In this document: positions 21,326 to 52,430 of the stretch, in pieces
Layout: each line of letters begins with the position of its first letter
Position numbering within the stretch: the stretch's first letter is position 1
From: Siphonodentalium dalli
Taxonomy: Eukaryota > Mollusca > Scaphopoda > Gadilida > Siphonodentaliidae
Assembly: GCA_032622095.1 (NCBI GenBank)
Contig: CP136069.1
Span: forward strand, 153,933,043 to 153,997,042
DNA: 64,000 nucleotides
Direction of reading: 5' to 3'
The notes under the pieces: model-generated
The model's database searches: none
What the model was told of the DNA's origin: nothing
Seen by the model: only the letters and a program-made list of their open reading frames with translations
Position numbers and translations under genes: made by a program

Positions 21326-22976
21326 TAGCCGATGAGCCCGACGTTGTCCGGGCTATTCAAAAAATCAAATTTCAAGTCGATAGCTCCACCCGTTTCCGAC
21401 ATCTGGTCTGCGCATGCGCGAAGCTGGCGTCGCACGACTCGGCGACCCGATAAAATTCGTATCCGGGGCAAGATACATTCACATACCAAATTTCAAGTCG
21501 ATAGCTCCACCCGTTTCCGAGATCTGGTCTGCGCATGCGCGAAGCTGGCGTCGCACGGGCTCGGCGACCCGATAAAATTCGTATCCGGGGCAAGATACAT
21601 TCATACAGCAAATTTCAAGTCGATAGCTCCACCCGTTTCCGAGATCTCGTCTGCGCATGCGCGAAGCTGGCGTCTCGACGTTGTCCGGGCTATTCAAAAA
21701 CCAAATTTCAAGTCGATAGCTATTCAAAAACCAAATTTCAAGTCGATAGCGAAGCTGGCGTCGCACGGGCTAGGCGACCCGATAAAATTCGTATCCGGGG
21801 CAAGATACATTCACATACCAAATTTCAAGTCGATAGCTCAACCCGTTTCCGAGATCTCGTCTGCGCATGCGCGAAGCCGGCGTCGCATGGGCTCGGCGAC
21901 CCGATCAAATTCGTATCCGGGGCAAGATACATTCACATAGCAAATTTCAAGGCGATAGCTCCACCCGTTTCCGAGATCTCGTCTGCGCATGCGCGAAGCT
22001 GGCGTCGCACGGGCTCGGCGACCCGATAAAATTCGTATCCGGGGCAAGATACATTCACATAGCAAATTTCAAGGCGATAGCTCCACCCGTTTCCGAGATC
22101 TCGTCTGCTCATGCGCGAAGCTGGCGTCGCACGGGCTCGGCGACCCGATAAAATTCGTATCCGGGGCAAGATACATTCATACAGCAAATTTCAAGTCGAT
22201 AGCTCCACCCGTTTCCGAGATCTCGTCTGCGCATGCGCGAAGCTGGCGTCTCGACGTTGTCCGGGCTATTCAAAAACCAAATTTCAAGTCGATAGCTATT
22301 CAAAAACCAAATTTCAAGTCGATAGCGAAGCTGGCGTCGCACGGGCTAGGCGACCCGATAAAATTCGTATCCGGGGCAAGATACATTCACATACCAAATT
22401 TCAAGTCGATAGCTCAACCCGTTTCCGAGATCTCGTCTGCGCATGCGCGAAGCCGGCGTCGCATGGGCTCGGCGACCCGATCAAATTCGTATCCGGGGCA
22501 AGATACATTCACATAGCAAATTTCAAGGCGATAGCTCCACCCGTTTCCGAGATCTCGTCTGCGCATGCGCGAAGCTGGCGTCGCACGGGCTCGGCGACCC
22601 GATAAAATTCGTATCCGGGGCAAGATACATTCACATATCAAATTTCAAGTGGATAGCTCCACCCGTTTCCGAGATCTGGTCTGCGCATGCGCGAAGCTAG
22701 CGTCGCACGGGCTCGGCGACCCGATAAAATTCGTATCCGGGGCAAGATACATTCACATAGCAAAGTTCAAGTCGATAGCTCCACCCGTTTCCGAGATCTC
22801 GTCTGCGCATGCGCTGCACGGGCCCCGCACGGGCTCGCCAATACGACAAGGTCGACCGCCTGGTCAAACTACACACACGTACCAAGTTTCGTCCCGATCG
22901 GTCGAGAATCGTAGATTTGTATAAATGACAGACAGACAGACAAACAGACAGACAGAGGTCTTCAAAATATATATGA
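21326..22976 (+). repeat. Head-array-tail repeat, copy 2, with amplified 122-bp array
   Basis: The head is GATGAGCCCGACGTTGTCCG. The array (21360-22830) has about 12 units of 121-122 bp containing TTCAAGTCGATAGCTCCACC, TCTGCGCATGCGCGAAGCTG and ATTCGTATCCGGGGCAAGAT. A segment of about 525 bp is present twice 576 bp apart with no difference I could find. Internal fragments of the head (GACGTTGTCCGGGCTATTCA) are embedded at about 21678 and 22254. It ends with CAGA repeats and TTCAAAATATATATGAGACTAG. Long open frames across the array are a by-product of the repeat. Confidence 0.88.
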
Positions 22977-32400: not shown

Positions 32401-32403
32401 TGT

Positions 32404-33995
32404 ACCTCGCGGTAGCTCTGATATCTAAATAGACATCTACATTTGGTAGCCTGGTGCACTATACATCGCGGTAGCTCTGATATCTAAATAGACATCTACA
32501 TTTGGTAGCCTGGTGCACTATACCTCGCGGTAGCTCTGACCTCTAAATAGACATCTACATTTGGTAGCCTGGTGCAATATACATCGCGGTAGCTGTGACC
32601 TCTAAATGGACATCTAAATTTGGTAGCCTGGTGCACTATACATCGCGGTAGCTCTGATATCTAAATAGACATCTACATTTGGTAGCCTGGTGCACTATAC
32701 ATCGCGGTAGCTCTGATATCTCAATAGAAATCTACATTTGGTAGCCTGATGCACTACACCTCGCGGTAGCTCTGACATCAAATAGACATCTACATTTGGT
32801 AGCCTGGTGCACTATACATCGCGGTAGCTCTGATATCTAAATAGACATCTACATTTGGTAGCCTGGTGCACTATACATCGCGGTAGCTCTGATATATAAA
32901 TAGACATCTACATTTGGTAGCCTGGTGCACTATACATCGCGGTAGCTCTGATATCTAAATAGAGATCTACATTTGGTAGCCTGGTGCACTATACCTCGCG
33001 GTAGCTCTGATATATAAATAGACATCTACATTTGGTAGCCTGGTGCACTATACATCGCGGTAGCTCTGACATCTAAATAGACATCTACATTTGGTAGCCT
33101 GGTGCACTATACATCGCGGTAGCTCTGATATCTAAATAGACATCTACATTTGGTAGCCTAGTGCACTATACCTCGCGGTAGCTCTGACCTCTAAATAGAC
33201 GTCTATATTTGGTAGTCTGGTGCACTATACTATACCTCGCGGTAGCTGTGACCTCTAAATTGACATCTAAATTTGGTAGCCTGGTGCACTATACCTCCCG
33301 GTAGCTCTTACCCCTAAATAGACATCTACATTGGTAGCCTGGTGCACCATACCTCGCGGTAGCTCTGACCTCTAAATAGACATCAACATTTGGTAGCCTG
33401 GTGCGCCCTACCTCGCGGTAGCTCTGACCTCTAAATAGACATCTACATTTGGTAGCCTGGTGCACTATACATCGCGGTAGCTCTGATATCTCAATAGACA
33501 TCTACATTTGGTAGCCTGGTGCACTATACCTCGCGGTAGCTCTGACATCTAAATAGACATATACATTTGGTAGCCTGGTGCACTATACATCGCGGTAGGT
33601 CTGATATCTAAATAGACATCTACATTTGGTAGCCTGGTGCACTATACCTCGCGGTAGCTCTGACCTCTAAATAGACATCTATATTTGGTAGTCTGGTGCA
33701 CTATACTATACCTCGCGGTAGCTGTGACCTCTAAATGGACATCTAAATTTGGTAGCCTGGTGCACTATACCCCCGGTAGCTCTTACCCCTAAATAGACAT
33801 CTACATTGGTAGCCTGGTGCACCATATCTCGCGGTAGCTCTGACCTCTAAATAGACACCTACATTTGGTAGCCTGGTGCGCCCTACCTCGCGGTAACTCT
33901 GACCTCTAAATAGACTACATTTGGTAGCCTGGTGCACTATACCTCACGGTAGCTGTGATCTCTAGATAATTTGCATTTGGTAGCCTGGTTCACTC
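32404..33995. repeat. 59-bp satellite array, about 27 copies, with a 476-bp higher-order repeat
   Basis: The unit CGCGGTAGCTCTGATATCTA + AATAGACATCTACATTTGGT + AGCCTGGTGCACTATACCT repeats with a strict 59-bp period. A set of distinctive variants (CACTATACTATACCTC, then GCTGTGACC, then CCCCTAAATAG, then GCGCCCTACC) appears in the same order twice, 476 bp apart (about 33221 and 33697), showing block amplification of eight units. The last unit decays near 33990. Confidence 0.93.
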
Positions 33996-45160: not shown

Positions 45161-45786
45161 ACTTGACCCGCGCAAAGGTGTTAATTGGATTTTCCCAGAT
45201 TTCCCAAAAATATAACCCAATCCGCGCGCTGCGATTTCGGCAAGTGGGTTGTCGCCCGTGCGTTGAAAAGTTGAAAAAGTGGTTATTTTTGGTATTTGTC
45301 GCATGATTTGGAGCAGTAAACACGGATGTGAAAAAAAAACTCAATGCGGAAGTGAAACGTCTACTAAATCCACAAGTGTTGCGCGCGCATCACAATTTCA
45401 CCGATGCATTTCGTCACAGAGTCCCGATAAACAGTCACATTGCACACTTGGGAGTCCAATATGATATTCGGGAGTCCAATGTGACTTTTTCCCGGATTAT
45501 CACGTGGCGGCTTTTGCCCAAACGGAAATAGTGTTAGTTAAGGGGTGGATAATGTTTTATGCCAATTATCACAAAGTGGGTGTCGGATCTAGTAACTTAA
45601 ACGGCTCACTGGACTGGCAGATAAAAACCAGTATGATAAGTCAACTGACAACCGGAAGGTGTGATCCCACGGCTATCTACAAGTTAACAAAGGAATACAG
45701 AATAGTAAAAAGCGGTTGTTCTGTCGTCATACATATATACTTTTCACACGTCAAGAGTATAACATATGTGTGTGTATACCGTGATG
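45161..45786. other. No recognised feature
   Basis: GGGAGTCCAATATGATATTC / GGGAGTCCAATGTGACTTTT form a small tandem near 45450-45490. No gene supported. Confidence 0.4.
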
Positions 45787-47672
45787 GAAGAGGAAGGGTG
45801 TGACTAATTAGTGCCCGGGCACGCCCGGGCACGCCCGGGCAGGTCCGGGTGATCTCATGGGCCCGCAGACAGTCTAATATGATGCCACATGGTAGTAGGA
45901 TACAGAATAAGCATATATTGTGAAAATTGACTTGCTGTGTCGTCCACCGGCGGGTTTATTAACCATTTAAATGCCGATATTGACTAAAAGAACCCGGGAG
46001 AGCCCAGACGGACGCATAGACCCGACCATATTATATATTGATGACTAATGGTTGCGAGGCACTTACTAAAGGTATATTGCAAATATTGACTCGCTATCTC
46101 GCTCGCGGCCGGCTTCATTAACCCCTTAAATGACGATATGCGCCAGAAGAACATGGCGCAAGCCCGGGCACGCCCGGGCAGGCCCTGGTGATCTCATGGA
46201 CCCGCAGACAGTCTAATATGATGCCACATGGTAGTAGGATACAGAATAAGCATATATTGTGAAAATTGACTTGCTGTGTCGTCCACCGGCGGGTTTATTA
46301 ACCATTTAAATGCCGATATTGACTAAAAGAACCCGGGAGAGCCCAGACGGACGCATAGACCCGACCATATTATATATTGATGACTAATGGTAGCGAGGCA
46401 CTTACTAAAGGTATATATTGCAAATATTGACTCGCTATCTCGCTCGCGGCCGGCTTCATTAACCCCTTAAATGACGATATGCGCCAGAAGAACATGGCGC
46501 AAGCCCGGACACGCCCTGGTGATCTCATGGACCCGCAGACAGTCTAATATGATGTCATATGGTAGTAGGATACAGAATAAGCATATATTATGAAAATTGA
46601 CTTGCTGTGTCGTCCACCGGCGGGTTTATTAACCATTTAAATGCCGATATTGACTAAAAGAACCCGGGAGAGCCCAGACGGACGCATAGACCCGACCATA
46701 TTATATATTGATGACTAATGGTTGCGAGGCACTTACTAAAGGTATATTGCAAATATTGACTCGCTATCTCGTTCGCGGCAAGCTTCATTAACCCCTTAAA
46801 TGACGATATGTGCCAGAAGAACATGGCGCAAGCCCGGGCACGCCCGGGCAGGCCCTGGTGGTCTCATGGGCCCGCAGACAGTCTAATATGATGTCATATG
46901 GTAGTAGGATACAGAATAAGCATATATTTTGAGAATTGACTTGCTGTGTCGTCCACCGCGGGTTTATTAACCCTCTAAATATCGATATTAACTAAAAGAA
47001 CCCGGGAGAGACCGGACGGACACAGAAACCTGATAATATTATATATTGATGACTAATGGTAGCGAGGCACTTACTAAAGGTATATTGCAAATATTGACTC
47101 GCTATCTCGTTCGCCGCCGGCTTCATTAACCACTTAAATAACGATATGCGCCAGAAGAACGCGGCAAGCCCGGGCAAGCCCGGACAGGCCCTGGCTGCCT
47201 CCTGAACCCGCGGACAGTCTAATATGATTCCGTACGGTAGTAGGATTCTGAATAAGCATGCAAATTTACTTGCTGTGTCATCAACCGGCGGGTTTATTAA
47301 CACTTTAAATGCCGATATTAACTTAAAGAACCCGGGAGAGCCTCGACTGACACAGCGACCCGATCATATTATATATTGATGAATAATGGGATCGAGGCAC
47401 TTACTAAAGGTATATTGCAAATATTGACTCGCTATTTCGTTCGCGGCCGGCTTTATTAATCCCTTAAATGACGATCTGCACCAAGAGAGCACGTGAAAGC
47501 CCGGGCAAGTCCGGGCAGGCCCTGGTGGCCTCATGGGCCCGCGGACAGTCTAATATGATGTCGTATGGTAGTAGGATATATACAGAATAAGCATAGAATA
47601 TGAAAATTGACTTGCTGTGTCGTCCACCGGCGGGTTAATTAACCATTTAAATGCCGATATTAACTAGAAGAA

Positions 47673-48384
47673 CCCTGGATACTTCTCGGGTTCGGTGATA
47701 CCTTCGGGTGTGGCGATATACCACGTACACGGGGTGAACTACGGGAATAAATAATAAGGTTTTAGAGAACATATAAACTTTATTTCATCTAAACGGCACG
47801 GTGGGCATCTCTTGTGTGATTTTGTCTATATGGGTTTCGGTATACACACAGCACTGCATTGAACCCACGGTATGTTCATTACAACGAGTTTGTCATAAAA
47901 TACCACGTAAAATAAGGTCGCAGAATTGTTCAAGAATTGTCAAGCCGTAAAATCGTGAAATTGGTCGCAGAATCGTCAACACGATTGTGCCGTGTAATCA
48001 GGGAACGATAATTATTGCATAATCTATACATTGGGACATTACAACGCTATAACTTCAGATACGGGCGGCCTAGCACTCGAAAATACTTTTCGACACCGTG
48101 CTCAGTTGATTAGTGGCGATCGATAAATCGAAACAAAATCTAGTCCGGAGTAATTCTTTAAATTTGTTTCTCAGAAGCGCTATGCGTAGGCCTGTATGCA
48201 GTATGTAATATAAATTAATAAAGGTAAAATATATCTACTCACCTTCAGCTTCAGTGAAGCAGATGGAGCACGGGTACAAAACCATAGCAGGAAGCGTCAA
48301 ACGAATTCGTGGTCGCATAATTGTAGGATATCTTATTGGAATACACTTTGAGTTTTAGTGTATTTAATTGCATATGTTGTTATA
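47673..48384. other. Interior of the foldback element, unrecognised
   Basis: Contains GGGTTCGGTGATACCTTCGG + GTGTGGCGATATACC and several AATCGT words (AAAATCGTGAAATTGG, GCAGAATCGTCAAC), but no open frame of note. Confidence 0.4.
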
Positions 48385-49193
48385 TATGATATAGAAGGTG
48401 ACCCGACTTCGTCCGGGCTATTCAAAAACCAAATTTCAAGTCGATTGCTCCACCCGTTTCCTAGATCTGGTCTGCGCATACGCGAACCTGGTGTCGCACG
48501 TGCTCGGCGACCCGATAAAATTCGTATCCGGGGCAAGATACATTCACATACCAAATTTCAAGTCGATTGCTCCACCCGTTTCCTAGATCTGGTCTGCGCA
48601 TGCGCGAAGCTGGTGTCGCACGTGCTCGGCGACCCGATAAAATTCGTATCCGGGGCAAGATACATTCACATACCAAATTTCAAGTCGATATCTACACCCG
48701 TTTTCGAGATATATAGCCCAATGTCATTTGCGGATACCTCGGCCGGTGATGAGTTAACGCGACACAGTCAAATGCATCGGCAGGGTGAGAGTTAACGTAA
48801 TCTAACTTTATGACCTCTGACGACGTCATAGAAATTACGCATTGATTTTATCCTGATAAAAGCATCGTACCACTTGTACCTAATAATTGAGGCAGATAAC
48901 TAAAACGGATACATACATATTATATATCGTTGGAAAGATGAAGCCACACAGATTCTAACCGTGCAAATTATATGACTGGCAATTTATTATTCGCGCTATA
49001 TCGAATCGATTTGTGAGCACCGAACTGAAATATATTAGCGCAAAAACGGCGTAAAAATAGATTTGACCTCCGCACGTGAAAAGTTGACCTCGCACGGACA
49101 AATAAATATGCCTATGTTCGTCTCCGGCCGAAAATACCCTAAAATACCAAATTTCATCGAAATTGGCTTAGTCGTTTTCGAGTCCATCGATTT

Positions 49194-49233
<40 letters not shown>

Positions 49234-49276
49234 AACACATACATGCACACACAGATCTTTCAAAATATATAATAGA
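48385..49276 (+). repeat. Head-array-tail repeat, copy 4
   Basis: The head AAGGTGACCCGACTTCGTCC + GGGCTATTCAAAAACC is followed by about 2.4 units of the 122-bp sequence seen at 21360-22830. About 450 bp of other DNA with AAATTTCATCGAAATTGGCT follows, then a (CA)n run at 49195-49230 and the tail TTTCAAAATATATAATAGAT. It sits inside the foldback element. Confidence 0.78.
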
Positions 49277-49762
49277 TAAGCCAGACTGCAACACAGTTTG
49301 ATTGGTTAATAATGAGTTGAAGCCAAGTATGGTATTGAGAAAAATATTATAGTTGCTAGATTATTAGGAAACCCAACCATTGGATGGAGCGGGATTAAAA
49401 TGTGCTTCTTTGATTGTGACACGAAAAACGAAAGCTCAGCTCCCACTGTCACTGTTGTCTCAACAATCAAGGAGTAAAATCCCAGGGTGCAATGATATCA
49501 CAATCTCGAATCCGCGCACGGGTATCTAATTTTATAATCCGTTTGATACCCTTCCCAGAATGTAAATCGAGATTATAGTGTTTTAATTGATATTCATAAT
49601 CCTCTATAATCTATGTTGGCTTCATGCATATAATCAGTCAAAAAATAACACAGAGCAATTCAGTTATATTCTCTAACATTATTCGCAAAGAATTCTGCTT
49701 TCAAACTTCCCTGGAACCAAATTCAATCAATAGGCAAATAATATATTCTAAAACAAAATATG
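49277..49762. other. Interior of the foldback element, unrecognised
   Basis: No open frame or repeat supported. Confidence 0.4.
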
Positions 49763-50277
49763 GTAATCGGACATTTCCCCACCGGACATTTCCCCAACCT
49801 CTCAGAAAGTGGCAAAGGGGCATTTACCCAATCGGACATTTACCAACCGGACATTTCCCCACTTACTCAATGCGGACATTTACCCACCGGACTTTTCCCC
49901 ACCCGAATTGTTGACTTTATTTTTGAAATAAGCATGACCGTCGACACATATTGTGTCACCACCACGATTGTTCTTAATCAATTCCATGATTGAAAGTGAA
50001 GATATGATTCCATGATAACTGATAAATGTTTTTCAAAACATTACATCGGTTGAGTTGACATGACATGAAATGGCCTCAATGTCCAGGCTTCACTGACCAC
50101 TCAAAACATCCTTTGATGTCTGCGATAAAGGATGTAGCATAAAATATTTTATTAGCAGGGCGGGGAAATGTCCGGTGGGTAAATGTCTTAGTGGGTAAAT
50201 GTCTGGGTGGGTAACTGTCCGGGTGGAGAAATGTCCGCTTTTGAAAGTGGGTCATGTCCCGTGCAGAAATGTCAGGG
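49763..50277. mobile_element. Small foldback element with GGACATTTCCCC repeats as arms
   Basis: The left arm (49763-49905) has about eight copies of CGGACATTTCCCCACC-like 16-20-bp units. The right arm (50155-50277) has the inverse, GGTGGGTAAATGTCC-like units. The middle 250 bp is unrelated. It is nested inside the 45.8-51.1 kb element. Confidence 0.75.
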
Positions 50278-51112
50278 ATTCAAAAATATATCGACCGACA
50301 AGTTCAAATTCGCAGGGCCAGTCCTTGTAAATAATAATAAAAAACATCAGAATGACCATCTAAGAGCGATTGTATGACGGCGGTTCACAATTTTTTCAAC
50401 TGTGAACTGCATGCTTTAAATTTAACGAGGAATTCTTTTTTTATATACATACTGTTGGACGTGTTACGTGGCGGTGAGCAAATTTTTCGACTGCATTGGG
50501 GGTTAAATTAAGTTTTTCACAAAAAAATATGCGGTTGTATATAGGAACGTATAAAGGATGGCCAATAATGCCGCCAATTCCTGATCGAGTGGGCACCAAT
50601 ATTATAAATGAACCCGCCGTGAACGATATATAACGGCAGTAAATGTTCATACCAGCCACCATACCGCCATAAGGCATCACACTATACCGATCACTGGTCC
50701 ATGTTGCCACCCGGGCTTGCGCGTGTTCTTCTGGCGCATATCGTCATTTAAGGGGTTAATGAAGCCGGCCGCGAACGAGATAGCGAGTCAATATTTGCAA
50801 TATATACCTTTAGTAAGTGCCTCGCTACCATTAGTCATCAATATATAATATGGTCGGGTCTATGCTTCCGTCTGGGCTCTCCCGGGTTCTTTTAGTCAAT
50901 ATCGGCATTTAAATGGTTAATAAACCCGCCGGTGGACGACACAGCAAGTCAATTTTCCTAATATATGCTTATTCTGTATCCTACTACCATATGGCATCAT
51001 ATTAGACTGTCTGTGGGCACATGAGACCACCAAGACCTGCCCGGGCGTGCCCGGGCGTGCCCGGGTGTGCCCGGGCGTGCCCGGGCACTAATTAGTCACA
51101 CCGAAGAGGAAG

Positions 51113-52430
51113 GAAGCTGTAATTATACTCTTAGATATAACAATATGCATAAGTACCTATACGTCTCCTAGTTTCAAAGCAATAGGTATCTAGAAGCATT
51201 AGGTTCTATATATTGATGTAATACATACGAGCATTAGGTAATAGTCAATCTCGAAACCAAATGGTGATCAACGTGATTGCATCACGTGTATGATGCACGA
51301 TACAATTCCAAGAAAACATGGCGGCGTCCGGCCACTTGAGGCGATTGAGTTTTTTTTACAATATATAAAAATGGAGAAGACACAAACTAATAGCAGGTTT
51401 ACACATTTTATGTTGGATCGGCCTCGGCTTACATGGTGTAGCGTGTGTCCAATTAGGTGCATTGTACTTTGACTGGAGGTATTTAAGAATACGGAAGTGA
51501 ACTTCTCGGAAATTTATCAACATATTTTTGTGTGTGAAATTAGACCTAACTTGCTTCTTAATAACCTGGACTATTATTAGCACTGTCTGGATTATGTTTG
51601 TATATGAACGGGACAAGATGTTATAACCTCCGAAAATTAACGGGGCCAAATAATTGATATTTTCCTCTGCAAAAGAGCAGAAATTTTCAGTTAACTGAGA
51701 CAGACAAAATTCAAACAGCAACAGGCTGAGTCATTGAGTGCAGTGGGGTAACACTTGACGTGCACGACAGTGTTGTGATACTTAAGTTTCACAATATTAT
51801 AAACAGCCCAATTAACTCACATTGCAAGAGTAACCACTGGTGACTATAGATTACGAGACATACAACAATGTAGAAATTAGTCGGAATTATGACGTCACAC
51901 ATCAGTCATGACTCATGAGTCAGTAACAAGTTTGTTGGCTACAACGTACAAGTACCCGTACAAAGGACGATGGATCATATTCTTCAATTTCCATCGAAAC
52001 GTGATTTGAGAACCATGTCGCCATAATATATGGCCCAGTCACGGAGTCTGCTATTCTTTTGATCGAAACGCCAGTGACGTTGTGATATTAATTGTTGTGA
52101 TATATTTATGGAATGACGGATAATCTCGGAGACACTGATCCAATTCTGGGACACACATTATCAAATAATCAAATTGTCTGTCGAGGCACACGTAGCCTAT
52201 ATTATGTTCATAAGTTGATCATCATGAGTTACTCTTGCAAATTATATAACAAAACTGACATTCAAAAACTACTTTATAACCTGACAATCTCCAACATACA
52301 GTACTCTTGAAAATCTGTTAACTCACTGACATTTCAACAATCAAATTATATATATATTGTCGGCACTCCATTCAAATATTCGCAAATGTCGCCTCAAATG
52401 ACTGTAACCAACAAAGAACTTGTGGGAAGT
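51113..52430. other. No recognised feature
   Basis: AT-rich. A minus-strand open frame at 51356-51721 has an acceptor-like TTCTGCTCTTTTGCAG near 51668, but no donor that fits and no known motif. TAACTCACATTGCAAGAGTAA near 51815 returns inverted near 52210. Confidence 0.35.

Follow-up and report, generated by a model that had tools for sequence, protein, structure and literature searches.

Within a 64,000-nucleotide stretch of the genome of the scaphopod mollusc Siphonodentalium dalli (positions 153,933,043 to 153,997,042 of contig CP136069.1, here C9, in assembly GCA_032622095.1; hereafter the window) lies a 5.3-kb element that is very probably a non-autonomous member of a family of foldback-type Mutator-like elements (MULEs), which are DNA transposons; it would be moved by the transposase of longer copies, and it duplicates 8 bp of its target. 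The source genome comprises 2.23 Gb in nine contigs. The window copy itself is a non-coding derivative: of its open reading frames only two reach 110 amino acids (aa), the first within an arm and the second within a nested 122-bp repeat, and because it keeps its ends but has no transposase frame, it would need an enzyme from elsewhere. A first-pass annotation, made from the letters of the window alone, had proposed a foldback transposon, and this proposal is borne out by inward-paired ends across the genome, flanking target duplications, related empty sites and a longer copy that carries a transposase frame. The family is assigned to the foldback MULEs because a Mutator-type frame lies within such ends and because the transposase lineage and the ends occur together.

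The window contains two copies of the 20-bp end GGTGTGACTAATTAGTGCCC, which appeared in none of 100 shuffles; genome-wide, the exact motif is found 335 times (162 forward and 173 reverse), and a control read backwards gave no occurrence. Pairing was read from the first 100 of these 335 listed ends (C1 to C3), together with 82 listed ends on C4 and part of C5. The first 100 include 38 plus-then-minus pairs with a median span of 4,349 bp (1,029–8,201 bp), and the other 24 ends are unpaired. By chance, a plus end would be expected to have approximately 0.001 partner in the adjoining 15 kb. One of the unpaired ends, C3:284145233, has its partner at C3:284145585, beyond the first 100, and the resulting pair of one A and one B end (defined below; C3:284145232-284145605) is 374 bp long, the smallest seen, and resembles a miniature inverted-repeat transposable element. 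The first-pass annotation had reasoned that ends never found in pairs, or without flanking duplications, would leave the arms as ordinary satellite; the genome instead holds these 38 inward pairs, and duplications flank 31 of 33 elements.

Those 33 elements comprise the window copy, 19 copies fetched whole, ten of the 38 listed pairs read by their ends, a long copy on C4 and two rearranged copies. An exact 8-bp duplication is present in 29 of them (18 of the 20 whole copies, nine of the ten pairs, the long C4 copy and the rearranged copy on C5); among the rest, L041 has a 9-bp duplication (read by eye; under a fixed 8-bp frame it had counted as mismatched), C4:243851202 has one of 7–8 bp, and L037 and C1:251735662 share only 5 bp between their flanks. 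This distribution accords with the 8–11-bp duplications of MULEs. Because L044 and L045 represent a single insertion that was duplicated, the independent cases number 28 of 32, and when the left flank of one element was set against the right flank of another, none of 378 combinations gave an 8-bp match. L044 (C2:213.45 Mb) and L045 (C2:210.80 Mb) share the same insertion and the same flanks in opposite orientation, which points to an inverted duplication with its copies approximately 2.65 Mb apart.

For the window copy, a perfect 10-bp duplication had originally been read. The identical 10-mer GAAGAGGAAG does stand at 45787-45796 and 51103-51112, but the duplication is the 8-bp AAGAGGAA; the longer match is made up of this duplication and, on each side, one G that is the terminal base of the element (inner) and one G that belongs to the target (outer). 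Taken alone, the window fits 8, 9 and 10 bp alike, because seven of the eight empty sites that were fetched have G flanking the 8-mer on both sides. It is the rule of the family that decides for 8 bp in the window, and a 10-bp duplication was rejected on the same count of 29 in 33.

Sites related to the insertion site but free of the element were sought with a 400-bp query in which the two window flanks were joined without the element, the junction falling at query position 200. The 42 matches consist of the window's own two halves, 34 sequences that cross the junction by 7–14 bases at 83–90% identity, and six that cross it by at most one base. Eight of the 34 were fetched, and all eight run uninterrupted through a single AAGAGGAA-like site (exact in six, with one base changed in two). 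These empty sites are paralogous, within one genome assembly, and as uninterrupted paralogues they indicate that the element inserted into one copy of a dispersed repeat, approximately 11 bases before the shared sequence stops. The same test among the other fetched loci yielded none. The target itself (window 45603-45795 and 51112-51122) belongs to a dispersed repeat of approximately 200 bp that has matches on all nine contigs, and the right flank from approximately 51121 onward matches a different repeat.

The two ends of each element differ from one another. One extra base, G or C, separates the duplication from the motif, and in all 33 elements the two ends have the same plus-strand base at this position; read outward, every element thus has one end with G (the A end) and one with C (the B end). 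Across the 335 exact motifs the preceding base is G in 153 and C in 181, with one left over, and each of the 38 listed pairs on C1–C3 has exactly one B end. Further inward, past the 10-bp repeats, A ends continue with TCCGGGTG or a near variant and B ends with TCTTGGTG in the 20 whole elements, the exceptions being L035 (A) and L032 (B). The two kinds of end stay distinct despite an identical 20-bp motif and outer units that are approximately 96% alike. The listed ends on C4 and part of C5 add 29 further adjacent inward A–B pairs, and the remaining seven adjacencies within 15 kb comprise four from two apparent B–B pairs and their outer A ends, two same-facing B doublets and one junction between elements. 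True B–B elements were considered and rejected: the two apparent pairs are rearranged or nested, with an A end just outside, and because the outer ends of both candidates are A–B with duplications (8 bp on C5, 7–8 bp on C4), a B–B class without duplications was dropped. It is possible, although we consider it rather doubtful, that A and B ends must be used together and that this polarity is required for transposition; if so, foldback MULEs would form an obligate A–B synaptic complex. A simpler reading is that the polarity is merely inherited from one founder.

Coding capacity is found in other copies. Two of the whole copies, L035 and L037, have frames of 216 and 199 aa adjoining the B arm, and a genome search with the L035 frame listed at least 150 places, two of which (on C4 and C8) lie at 98–99% identity in 410-aa frames. 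The C4 frame is part of a 12,432-bp copy, the longest found; the first-pass annotation had proposed a search for longer copies that encode a transposase. Its match to Mutator-family Pfam models upholds the Mutator link drawn in that annotation and places a Mutator-family DDE transposase frame in a copy with the same ends. The catalytic spacing of the 410-aa frame is D-75-D-117-E (the last figure counted by hand), and at the last catalytic residue stands TNNxxESxN, which we take to be a MULE-type motif. Spacings of 60–76 residues and then, in most families, 120–135, gaps included, are given for MULEs (PMC13359780, used here, as are the other cited reports, in excerpt); the first spacing is within this range and the second lies just under it. 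A PDB sequence search with the same frame returned two matches at E = 0.8, taken as chance, and a tblastn search against a phage collection returned no match. On C8, within 143032750-144029269, three loci each hold two opposed transposase fragments 1.0–1.3 kb apart from start to start, an arrangement that looks like a duplicated rearranged copy.

The association of the transposase with the ends was followed in all 19 listed C1–C3 protein matches to the L035 frame of at least 58% identity, which were compared with the listed exact ends. Of the seven matches of at least 81% identity, five fall inside an end pair and two are no more than 5 kb away from an A end, and all seven read towards the A end; none of the 12 matches of 58–78% identity has a listed exact end within 12 kb. 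It follows from the linkage of the closer matches that this transposase lineage travels with the ends.

Several observations nonetheless weigh against the assignment to a foldback MULE and should be considered together. The 19 elements fetched whole were a non-random choice (19 of the 39 other places that strongly match the A arm of the window copy), 23 end-bearing places on C1–C3 are without an exact partner, and two places on C4 have two same-facing B ends within 7 kb. The long C4 copy was read in pieces and its gene in part (the gene end, L070; 1.4 kb upstream, L093; end stretches; and samples), its B end is missing seven bases between motif and repeats, and the twenty 100-bp samples comprise 11 with matches in other copies, seven from inside the copy with none and two from outside it. 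Likewise, the 410-aa frame scores 22.1 bits against PF00872 (Transposase_mut), a narrow margin over the cut-off of 21, and 26.3 bits against PF10551 (MULE), just under the curated cut-off of 27.6. Neither the 466-aa frame upstream in the long copy nor the 216-aa fragment of L035 matches any Pfam family at cut-off, and a single-sequence structure model was uninformative (mean predicted local distance difference test score 35).

As first described, the arms are built from a two-part unit in tandem, and they are unequal, although several of the dimensions originally given have changed. The left arm holds 5.4–5.5 units, in agreement with the earlier count of 5.5, but the right arm holds approximately 1.0 (346 bases against a 339-bp unit) rather than 1.5; the dimeric unit, given as 335 bp, is mostly 339 or 341 bp long, with the remainder at 331–337 bp; and the inverted ends, which do lie at 45797 and 51102, match perfectly over 36 bp rather than 24. 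Likewise, the subterminal decamer described as palindromic is no palindrome as written, but the core GCCCGGGC is one, as is GTGCCCGGGCAC at the first repeat. Measured against a query unit, the first three units of the A arm are 98–100% identical and the inner units 85–91%. The half-units of the dimer are 49–71% identical over 100 nucleotides compared without gaps (mean 61.9; shuffled pairs average 25.7 and reach at most 42), and a gapped comparison did no better than shuffles, although the ungapped one did beat them. When the terminal motif was sought inside the unit, the sole signal was a shared GTGCCCGGGC, which 36 of 1,000 shuffles equalled. In predicted folds of the A-end DNA the GC-rich repeats form hairpins (z = −2.8), a signal taken to reflect the palindromic cores.

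It had also been suggested that an arm of this kind provides a route by which a transposon seeds satellite DNA, and the places examined speak against this. A 26-base piece of the unit occurs at 869 places in the genome (441 + 428; control 0), and the first 100 of these, in assembled sequence, form 21 clusters. Eighteen consist of a plus run followed by a minus run, that is, an inverted pair of arms, and three are one-sided (one of them at the edge of the places listed); an exact end lies near 19 of the 21, and no side holds more than five exact pieces. Long head-to-tail arrays apart from a mobile element were not found among these 100 places, and a free satellite was rejected, the units there forming short foldback arms. 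As in foldback elements, the arms vary in length, with BLAST coverage of 1.4–7.3 units in the A arm and 0.7–5.0 in the B arm over the 20 whole copies. For 103 units from 19 elements (collected by anchors, with some missed), the nearest relative lies in another element in 93 cases and in the same arm type in 95, so that A and B arms look like separate lineages passed on with the element. Amplification within single copies into satellite was not seen in this material, and arm identity within an element (0.960) compared with that between elements (0.959) gives no sign of homogenisation inside copies.

These data allow other explanations to be weighed. Were the arms ordinary satellite arrays that are inverted by chance and happen to share 10 bp at their edges, one would expect tandem arrays of a dimeric unit, and such arrays are indeed what the arms are. 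This account is, however, close to untenable given ends that are paired genome-wide, 8-bp duplications at the frequency reported above, empty sites, and clusters of which, in the 100 unit places examined, 18 in 21 are plus-then-minus arm pairs, with no more than five exact matches on any side. Hardly any more credible is the capture and spread of a satellite unit by a rolling-circle element (Helitron or Helentron). Helitrons are not known to have inverted arms or to make a target duplication; this family has both, and its long copy has a DDE transposase frame. In favour of such a capture, the Pacific oyster has short dispersed satellite-like arrays inside mobile elements (PMC7492417, in excerpt).

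The possibility that the foldback family belongs instead to the P superfamily (as Galileo does), to hAT or to a further superfamily deserves slightly more consideration but is still improbable. Target duplications in hAT and P are of approximately 7–8 bp, and the 8-bp duplications observed here would fit them too. Repeats of approximately 210 bp are also held in the arms of Galileo (PMC3573991). The coding evidence argues otherwise, in that the models matched by the 410-aa frame in the long copy are those of the Mutator family, whereas the 466-aa and 410-aa frames of this gene, read in part, have no P, THAP or hAT Pfam match up to E = 10 in a search whose HMMER filters drop many weak matches. 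The TNNxxESxN motif, of MULE type, argues in the same direction.

If the family is indeed a foldback MULE, a plausible scheme for its movement can be drawn from the organization of its ends. Each end is organized in three layers: the 20-bp motif, which has a palindromic core; a small number of GC-rich 10-bp repeats; and the inverted array of dimeric units (approximately 335–340 bp). Most likely, a DDE transposase from longer relatives, for example the 12.4-kb copy, in which the gene is read towards the A end, binds the ends through these layers and pairs one A end with one B end. The whole element would then be excised and inserted through a staggered cut, with 8 bp of target (rarely 9) being duplicated. 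Movement would thus be of the cut-and-paste type, with the transposase bound at the repeats, and the family may be active at present.

The family is distinct, although flies, mosquitoes and nematodes are known to have elements of this kind. The suggestion that it may be undescribed holds for the end sequence, which was not found in the open-access literature (a search that did not cover Repbase), but not for the kind, since Tetris, Tm1, Muta1 and Galileo are close precedents. With Muta1 and other MULEs of Aedes aegypti (PMC5225508) it shares a MULE transposase, 8- or 9-bp duplications, and ends in which short tandem repeats stand subterminally, next to a palindromic terminal motif; the excerpted report also describes more than 300 putative non-autonomous derivatives with mostly varied interiors, a type 2 foldback class, and transposition of Muta1 in yeast. 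Muta1 follows the same plan on a smaller scale, with ends of 145 bp, 12-bp repeats and an element length of 3.2 kb (PMC5225508), whereas the S. dalli family has an extra layer of dimeric units, arms of up to approximately 2.5 kb and a long copy of 12.4 kb. Tetris of Drosophila virilis (PMC4079207) is likewise of foldback structure: its arms consist of tandem units of approximately 220 bp that vary in number, its middle is variable and non-coding, and its duplications are of 8–10 bp. In the parts of that report drawn on here, Tetris is without a known coding copy, and its unit occurs in longer satellite arrays that the element is reported to have seeded; here, in contrast, a copy with a transposase frame was found, and the 100 unit places examined include no free arrays.

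Similarities extend to Tm1 of Meloidogyne (PMC3169594), a Mutator/foldback element with composite ends that contain internal repeats, with coding and non-coding classes, and with asymmetric terminal motifs outside the inverted repeat, generally one kind per end. Tm1 differs in its 9-bp duplication, 7-bp terminal motifs and approximately 14-bp repeats (PMC3169594), and the asymmetry of the ends in S. dalli consists of one base and inner diagnostic bases. Galileo of Drosophila (PMC3573991) also has long arms with internal tandem repeats, the number of which may differ between the arms of one copy, but it has a P-superfamily transposase and 7-bp duplications. Finally, Rehavkus (PMC6446971, in excerpt) is, like this family, an animal element related to Mutator with a repeat array near one end, and it has 9-bp duplications and a PHD finger. 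The S. dalli family has 8-bp duplications in 29 of the 33 elements and a 9-bp duplication in one, and its 466-aa and 410-aa frames, from a gene read in part, gave no match to a PHD finger.

Table 1. Organization of the window element (window coordinates) and position of the longest related copy (assembly coordinates)
Feature	Position	Strand or orientation	Remarks
Left 8-bp target duplication AAGAGGAA	45788..45795	.	single copy at 8/8 fetched empty paralogous sites (6 exact, 2 with one base changed)
A-end terminal base G, belongs to element	45796..45796	+	top-strand base equal at both ends, 33/33 elements
A-end terminal motif GGTGTGACTAATTAGTGCCC, palindromic core ACTAATTAGT	45797..45816	+	
A-end subterminal 10-bp repeats, GCCCGGGCAC type	45813..45849	+	3.7 copies
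A arm: dimeric unit x5.5 in tandem	45829..47679	+	
Interior without transposase frame, nested repeats	47680..50710	.	parts 98–99.6% common to L031, L039, L043, L046, L047, L048
Nested insertion (limits approximate), 122-bp repeats and CA-rich tail	48394..49265	.	same place empty in copy L039
B arm: approximately one dimeric unit, inverted	50711..51060	-	96% complementary to A-arm units
B-end subterminal 10-bp repeats	51038..51086	-	4.9 copies
B-end terminal motif GGTGTGACTAATTAGTGCCC	51083..51102	-	
B-end terminal base: C on the end's own strand, G on +	51103..51103	-	38/38 C1–C3 pairs have exactly one B end
Right 8-bp target duplication AAGAGGAA	51104..51111	.	
Longest copy found	C4:85604213-85616644, 12,432 bp	B end left, A end right	duplication CTATATAT both sides

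Other repeats were observed in and around the element (Table 1). Copy L034 has sequence similar to the nested insertion at 48394-49265 in the opposite sense, and within the interior, at 49765-50240, motifs resembling CGGACATTTCCCC are clustered, inverted with respect to one another, in a region common to several copies. Elsewhere in the window, a large array at 21355-22837 is apparently of the same 122-bp repeat family as the part of the element interior at 48420-48710, its 122-bp blocks being arranged with a higher-order period of approximately 454, and a 59-bp tandem repeat at 32403-33994 runs for 27 copies with 89% matches.

It is informative that one assembly documents a foldback MULE with satellite-sized arms together with its derivatives, a long relative that carries a transposase frame, the rule of its target duplication and related empty sites. 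The idea that transposon arms of this kind seed satellite DNA is now testable, and the part of the genome examined here points to no. In addition, the A–B polarity of the ends provides a testable hint at how the transposase pairs them.

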